This document shows positions 32,542 through 33,690 of a DNA stretch of 64,000 nt, in pieces (positions within the stretch are counted from its first letter, which is position 1; each line of letters starts with the position of its first letter). The stretch is from contig JABIFF010000012.1 in the NCBI GenBank assembly GCA_018650845.1, forward strand, positions 186,001 through 250,000, written 5' to 3'. This DNA comes from Chloroflexota bacterium. GTDB lineage: Bacteria > Chloroflexota > Dehalococcoidia > Lucifugimonadales > Lucifugimonadaceae. The notes beneath the pieces are model-generated. The model saw only the letters and a list, made by a program, of their open reading frames with translations. It was not told the DNA's origin and made no database searches. Made by a program: the position numbers and the translations under genes.

Positions 32542-33690
32542 ATGCTGTTAAGACGGGTGATATTGCTGGCGATTGGCTTGTCGATACTGACGGTCGTCGC
32601 CTGTTCGCAGAACAACGAATTGCCGATCAACGCGCCCGCTACTGATTCCACATCAAGCAAAATTCAGGCACCAGAGTTCGATGTCGATAGTTTCGTTGAG
32701 CTAAAGCCAAATCCAGAGATTCGTGAGCTTGATCCTGAAATAGATCTGGGCTTCTACGAACGCGAGCGCATCCCACGCGACGCAATCGAACCGATCTACA
32801 CGCCAAAGTTCGTAACTCCCAACGAGGTGACCCTCCAGCCAGACGAAATCGTAATGGGGCTAATCATCAACGGCGATGCAAGAGCCTACCCAACCGGCTT
32901 ACTTCGGGTGAGAGAAATGGTGAACGACGACGTAGGTGGCACGCCCGTTCTCGTTAGCTGGTGACCAATTTGCTACACCGGCCTCGTGCATGACCGGCGA
33001 ATCGATGGCGTTGAACATACTTTTGGCAACGAGGGTGCGCTGTTCAAGAGCGCAATGACCTGGTGGGACTGGGAGACTAAGAGCATCTGGTCGCAACCGT
33101 GGGGGGCAGCCATAGAAGGCGAACTCACCGGCACTCGACTCACACTTCTGCCGTACGAACTAGTTCCGTGGAGATCGTGGGTGGAACGACAACCCAACAC
33201 GAAAGTCCTTATCGATGAACGGGCGAGTCTGGTCTACAACGGACGATTCCCGATCGATCGATTCGTGATCGGCGTGTCGTTCGGTGAAGCAGCGAAGGGA
33301 TTTTACTTTGCATCGTCTGCGAATCAGGGAATCGTGAACGAAACGGTTGGCGAGTTTCCTGTGGCGCTCTTCGCCGATGCAGAAACCCGGGTGGTTCACG
33401 TGTTCATAAGTTCGCCTCGGGCGGGATTAAGTGGAGCACAAGATTTGCCTGAAGTTCTGACATTTCACGCTGTTGAGGCAGCGATCGAATTAGAAGATTC
33501 GACCGTCCAAGACATCGAGACAGGCTCGACGTGGGACATTGAAGCTGGAGTTGCCACTGACGGATCGCTGAAAGGCGCTCTGCTGCAACGAGCACCGTTC
33601 ATATCGTCTTACTACTGGGCTTGGGAAGACTTTAATCCCCACACTGAGTTCTGGCCAAACAATGAAGGCCGTTTTGACGAGCTTGAGTAG
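32542..33690 (+). CDS. DUF3179 lipoprotein with one in-frame TGA (candidate selenocysteine)
   Basis: 383 codons from ATG 32542 (AAGGTGG about 10 nt upstream) to TAG 33688-33690. A lipoprotein signal ends in LTVVAC (Cys21). The DUF3179 domain follows: DDVGGTPVLVSW, then TGA at 32962-32964 (codon 141), then PICYTGLVHDRRIDG and SIWSQPWG. Relatives have Cys at codon 141, in a CPxC motif. The frame is otherwise clean for 241 codons beyond. From 13 nt after the TGA, bases 32978-32997 can form CCGG..TC-GTGCAT-GA-CCGG, in a position like a bacterial SECIS. Either Sec is inserted (UPIC), or this is a recent nonsense mutation; no sel genes are in the window. Confidence 0.72.
32978..32997 (+). promoter_or_regulatory. 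Possible bacterial SECIS-like hairpin
   Basis: CCGG (32978-32981) pairs with CCGG (32994-32997), and TC (32984-32985) pairs with GA (32992-32993) above a 2-nt bulge, leaving a GTGCAT loop that starts with G-U. The stem starts 13 nt after the TGA and the loop starts 21 nt after it, similar spacing to the E. coli fdhF element. The stem is short, so this is suggestive only. Confidence 0.35.

Follow-up and report, generated by a model that had tools for sequence, protein, structure and literature searches.

A DUF3179 gene with an in-frame TGA in a Dehalococcoidia genome probably encodes an additional member of a known selenoprotein family

A single reading frame at positions 32542-33690 (+) of the window, the 64-kb stretch of DNA analysed here, is interrupted by one TGA codon, and the locus raises the question of whether this TGA ends a truncated protein or is decoded as selenocysteine (Sec). 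The frame comprises 382 residues, with the TGA taken as Sec, and a TAG stop; the sole internal TGA is codon 141 (32962-32964, +; VLVSW-TGA-PICYTG) and takes the place of the first Cys of a CPxC motif. The whole protein matches PF11376 (DUF3179) with an E value of 2.7e-58 and 198 bits against a curated cut-off of 27, and the same family is matched separately by the 140 residues 5' of the TGA (E 4.9e-14) and the 241 residues 3' of it (E 5.8e-35). The original prediction of one DUF3179 frame interrupted only by this TGA, at the first Cys of the motif (SW-U-PICYTG), was thus confirmed. Comparison of the protein with NCBIfam gave a sub-threshold match only (E 0.012). The gene is lipoprotein-like, with a Cys at residue 21 in a stretch judged by eye to resemble a lipobox, and the conserved columns of the alignments point to Cys144 (32971-32973, +) as the candidate partner of Sec in a UPxC motif. 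A scan of the window for frames joined across a TGA, with 60 or more codons to either side of it, gave 24, the DUF3179 frame among them, and 20 of these overlap an opposite-strand ORF; the DUF3179 frame was judged to be the only convincing one, and the family search was run on it alone. As for the gene neighbourhood, four of five orthologue stretches (G086, G204, G148 and G180) have a leuB-like gene next to the orthologue, which was not seen in G236, and in three (G086, G204 and G148) a penicillin amidase gene is nearby; these neighbours suggest no function for the DUF3179 gene.

The window belongs to a genome (G000) of 2.48 Mb in 24 contigs that is 87% complete, and the search for sel genes and tRNA-Sec that had been proposed as a check found all of them there. 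In profile searches selB scored above its cut-off, selA reached 516 bits and selD 368 bits. The same 98-base sequence of the tRNA-Sec (anticodon TCA) is found twice, where contig C3 ends and where C17 begins, and we interpret this as a single gene in an overlap between the two contigs. The product of selD (L020) is probably another selenoprotein, as the gene has its own in-frame TGA, in the motif CAGUAGK. The same genome holds four DUF3179 genes (six matches), three with TGA and one with TGC at the same aligned codon: the TGA genes are the window gene (SWUPICYTG), a gene on C21 (TWUPLCFTG) that lies approximately 4 kb from selD, and a gene on C8 (TYUILCHSG), and the TGC gene is on C13 (TFCPLCNTG), approximately 6 kb from selB.

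Relatives were drawn from a DUF3179 search that covered 247 genomes of the order and found matches in 163, from a search with the window protein that covered 76 genomes of the family and found matches in 48, and from a profile search of named genomes, in which 80 of the loci listed were kept. Ten loci repeating the region of another locus were excluded beforehand, and 12 further duplicates were dropped, leaving 158 distinct domains with a site residue, a set picked by similarity to the query and not a random sample. The site was found by an HMM-based search; an earlier regex pattern had located it in only 20 of the 80 named loci. At the site codon the 158 domains have TGA in 75, TGC in 53 and TGT in 30 cases, the 75 including a 25-residue piece of a decayed copy (G156), the remaining stops of that copy falling beyond the piece aligned. 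Across the aligned stretches, with the last 8 codons excluded, TAA and TAG are absent and TGA occurs elsewhere three times. On a tree of 157 rows, from which the G156 piece was omitted and in which the site residue was masked where the context string was found, parsimony requires at least 10 switches between Sec and Cys, or at least 8 when poorly supported branches are disregarded, compared with about 52 when the labels are shuffled. Genes of the Sec form were found in Chloroflexota, in Poribacteria, in an Anammoxibacter MAG (Planctomycetota), in a Marinimicrobia genome and in one Actinomycetes MAG, and all archaeal DUF3179 rows have Cys; viral contigs gave no match to the site pattern. Close named relatives of the window gene are named as Dehalococcoidia or SAR202 cluster. 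Among the 28 window-type genes, 23 have TGA and 5 have TGC or TGT, and identity to the window protein ranges from 45 to 72% among the window-type Sec rows of the alignment. Among the matches listed in the order search, at least 53 rows contain one TGA, at least two contain one TAG (both in G205) and at least one contains one TAA (G065); the rows with an internal TAG or TAA and not TGA are G205:C48:7198-8133, G205:C53:104792-105658 and G065:C131:10525-11463.

The distribution of TGA copies was also compared with that of the Sec machinery. A TGA copy is listed in 35 of the 76 family genomes (counted by eye among the matches listed, with the decayed G156 copy left out), and selA or selB is over its cut-off in 34 of these 35, the exception being G212, where selA is present only as a fragment at the end of a contig. 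The other 41 genomes comprise 24 with selA or selB and 17 with neither over cut-off, and all 17 of the latter are 1.5 Mb or smaller. Common descent and differences in genome size confound the association between TGA copy and sel genes (Fisher p 7e-5).

The closest relative found is the orthologue of G086 (L068), with 76% identity to the window protein. Between the two, dN is 0.031 and dS 1.521 before the TGA, and dN is 0.137 and dS 1.152 over 229 codons past the hairpin, indicating purifying selection both upstream and downstream of the UGA; versus most other relatives, synonymous changes are saturated. The two signs that had been proposed as a check, alternation of TGA with TGC/TGT in relatives and purifying selection 3' of the TGA, were therefore both found. 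Not every orthologue is intact: that of G156 is decayed, with five TGA, two TAG and one TAA, that of G158 is frame-broken, and L068 has a second in-frame TGA at codon -8 from the Sec codon, where relatives have Gly, which may reflect either two Sec residues or a mutation or error. These three cases suggest that some relatives can do without the gene. The original prediction had named as its contrary case broken relatives together with a lack of other TGA-bearing homologues; the broken relatives exist (G158 and G156), and so do many TGA homologues.

In bacteria, a selenoprotein gene is recognised by a bSECIS hairpin just downstream of the UGA. The small hairpin proposed 13 nt past the TGA is present at 32978-32997 (+), with a stem formed by 32978-32983 opposite 32992-32997 and a loop at 32984-32991. 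Its pair 32982/32993 is a C.A mismatch because the window copy has C at 32982, the same pair being U-A in 25 of 27 rows of the window subfamily, and against synonymous-codon shuffles it is not unusually stable (z -0.71). Taken alone, this single copy is weak, and it is at the level of the family that a bSECIS is found. With the codon use of the window subfamily applied to all rows, hairpin stability against such shuffles has a mean z of -2.0 for the Sec genes (n = 74) and of -0.22 for the Cys genes (n = 83), and z is below -1.64 in 72% of the Sec genes versus 11% of the Cys genes (Mann-Whitney p 5e-18, among rows that are related by descent). The Cys-type proteins (e.g., those of Nitrosopumilus and Rokuibacteriota and the SAR202 paralogues) have the same domain, with CPxC at the same place; their codon is TGC or TGT, and their hairpin stability stays near the shuffled mean, unlike that of the Sec genes. 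The hairpin thus marks mainly Sec genes.

Conservation of the hairpin takes different forms in the two subfamilies. In 23 window-type Sec genes, codons +5 to +11 past the TGA hardly vary at synonymous sites: their mean codon entropy is 0.22 versus 1.46 (sd 0.45) for 69 other conserved columns, and when seven columns were drawn at random 100,000 times, no draw had an entropy as low; Val +8 is encoded by GTG in 23/23 Sec genes of this subfamily and by GTC or GTT in 5/5 Cys genes. The 6-bp stem of the window subfamily (28 genes, 27 distinct) is 96.9% paired; with so little variation in the stem, the 27 distinct rows show invariance and no covariation. In the sister subfamily (45 Sec genes, 40 distinct; L004, whose hairpin is in another register, was omitted from the stem set), a 7-bp stem is 98.9% paired and five of its seven pairs are changed on both sides, against a mean of 3.2 in shuffles (13/500 as high). 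The covariation score of this stem is 0.524, compared with 0.142 in shuffles and at most 0.121 in slid versions; further pair types in it are no more numerous than in shuffles (106/500 as high). A search of Rfam with the hairpin returned nothing above the gathering threshold, the only match being STnc40 (E 1.7).

The best explanation, to which we assign a probability of roughly 0.95, is that the gene encodes a DUF3179 protein in which UGA-141 is decoded as Sec via SelB, tRNA-Sec and the downstream hairpin, forming a UxxC pair with Cys144. The product would be a DUF3179 protein, probably exported and lipid-anchored, of SAR202-like Chloroflexota within Dehalococcoidia; SelB and tRNA-Sec would insert Sec at the UGA, guided by the hairpin that begins 13 nt downstream, and Sec and Cys144 would be redox partners in domain 1 of the duplication, the motif being absent from domain 2. 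The use of Sec put forward in the original prediction is strongly supported by the machinery, the paralogues, the TGA/TGY alternation, the purifying selection and the hairpin covariation of the sister subfamily. At the level of sequence, the machinery, codon alternation, hairpin, purifying selection and duplication are supported; the protein may further be exported, its UxxC pair having a redox role outside the cytoplasm, and its putative substrate may favour reaction with a selenol over that with a thiol.

It is very unlikely that the gene is otherwise of the Cys type and owes its TGA to a sequencing error or to a nonsense change from TGC/TGT that arose recently. The locus is represented by assembly sequence only, the window hairpin has one mismatch, and the decayed G156, the frame-broken G158 and the second TGA of G086 are in keeping with such an event; however, TGA stands at the site in 23 of the 28 window-type genes, across Sec rows 45 to 72% identical, two further DUF3179 genes of G000 share the TGA at that codon, and the sequence past the TGA is under purifying selection. 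Because the TGA is common to orthologues and two paralogues, error and fresh mutation were rejected. Recoding of the UGA as another amino acid without selenium (e.g., Trp or plain Cys) is less probable still. In its favour is only that the evidence is at the DNA level; against it, G000 encodes the complete Sec machinery, the hairpin is chiefly a mark of TGA genes, TGA alternates with Cys codons only, and TGA also serves as an ordinary stop, for example, at the end of the C21 DUF3179 gene (L002). Genome-wide stop reassignment was likewise rejected because that C21 gene, past its own Sec codon, ends in TGA and because few TGA codons occur at other places in the domain. At a Sec codon, termination and Sec insertion compete, and this competition, together with the weakened appearance of the window hairpin, could be taken to favour regulated termination, in which the UGA and hairpin mainly set the amount of full-length protein and the 140-residue product also has a role; the short product would span only positions 1-64 of the 292 in the PF11376 profile, and we give this reading scarcely any weight.

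The window gene is judged with high confidence to encode a selenoprotein, an additional member of the known DUF3179 family and not a new family. The claim of a new selenoprotein family fails because DUF3179 (pfam11376) is already tabled as a selenoprotein family with the motif UxxC/T in two reviews (PMC9312934, PMC13188914), each giving one accession in its DUF3179 table row. Compared with these table rows, the window gene belongs to the same Pfam family and likewise has Sec in UxxC; the present case differs in that G000 has three Sec paralogues and one Cys paralogue, in that the group is Chloroflexota, and in that the SECIS-like hairpin covaries in part of the family. The main texts of both reviews contain 0 occurrences of 'Chloroflexi' or 'Chloroflex', and a literature search of titles and the starts of abstracts gave no account of Sec-DUF3179 in SAR202 or Poribacteria. 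Standard-code ORF calling splits such a gene into two fragments, so Sec-DUF3179 is easily missed in Chloroflexota, Poribacteria and similar environmental genomes. Of the two reviews, PMC9312934 cites a 2007 study by Zhang and Gladyshev on an Olavius symbiont.

DUF3179 is a tandem duplication: the profiles of residues 77-228 and 236-375 align with a probability of 99.9 and an E value of 2.5e-36. Repeat 1 (32770-33225, +; from profile comparison and the model) bears UPxC, and repeat 2 (33247-33666, +; from profile comparison) is without CPxC, the CPxC/UPxC motif occurring in the first repeat only. The predicted full model, with Cys for Sec, has a mean pLDDT of 82 and a pTM of 0.80, and repeat 1 alone reaches 96 and 0.91. 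In Foldseek, the top match of the whole model is the Rieske ferredoxin 3gce (E 0.033, not significant), followed by dioxygenases, and the half model ranks 3c0d, 3d89 and 4aiv first (best E 0.46, not significant); 3d89 is also a Rieske ferredoxin, and 3c0d and 4aiv are nitrite reductase small subunits, which we take to be Rieske-like. The likeness to Rieske-fold domains consists of these top structural ranks and of the repeat 2 profile, which aligns with a Rieske profile in hhalign over 89 columns with a probability of 31% and a score of 25.6, compared with at most 14.0 in 60 shuffles and 9.1 when reversed. On the other side, no Foldseek E value is significant, none of 56 repeat-1 halves matches the Pfam Rieske model, and no conserved C-x-H / C-x-x-H [2Fe-2S] ligand set was seen by eye among the listed conserved columns of both alignments. 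A Rieske relationship of repeat 1 at the sequence level was rejected, as its similarity to the Rieske profile lies within that of its shuffles. A search for solved relatives by sequence gave none for alignment A2 and one match at E 1, a lectin, for alignment A5. The models thus hint weakly at a cluster-less Rieske-like fold, which is a lead and not a result. The fuller proposal, that DUF3179 is a duplicated cluster-less Rieske-type fold in which a Sec-Cys pair replaces the iron-sulfur site and which SAR202-like Chloroflexota export, is tentative and somewhat more likely to be wrong than right; if true, DUF3179 would be a selenol redox module on a Rieske scaffold. SAR202-like Chloroflexota are abundant in the deep ocean. 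The conserved UxxC and the duplicated fold provide a first handle on a little-studied family of unassigned function.

Predicted folds of two uncharacterised giant-virus proteins also match the DUF3179 repeat, namely, BFVD A0A1V0SD44 of Indivirus (E 4e-5, TM 0.68) and BFVD A0A1V0SF28 of Hokovirus (E 0.06, TM 0.54). Rieske-domain matches are very numerous in single genomes of the same order (59 in G003, 55 in G006 and 37 in G007).

The family offers a good natural test of when Sec pays over Cys because it combines several copies per genome with repeated switches between the two. Tandem TGC/TGT genes stand beside a TGA gene at L098 (G242:C141), L079/L099 (G234:C105) and L109 (G222:C25), and these copies are natural pairs for a Sec versus Cys comparison. 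In the Anammoxibacter MAG, one gene (L142) retains the Sec codon, and the second Cys of its motif is replaced by Ala (UPLA).
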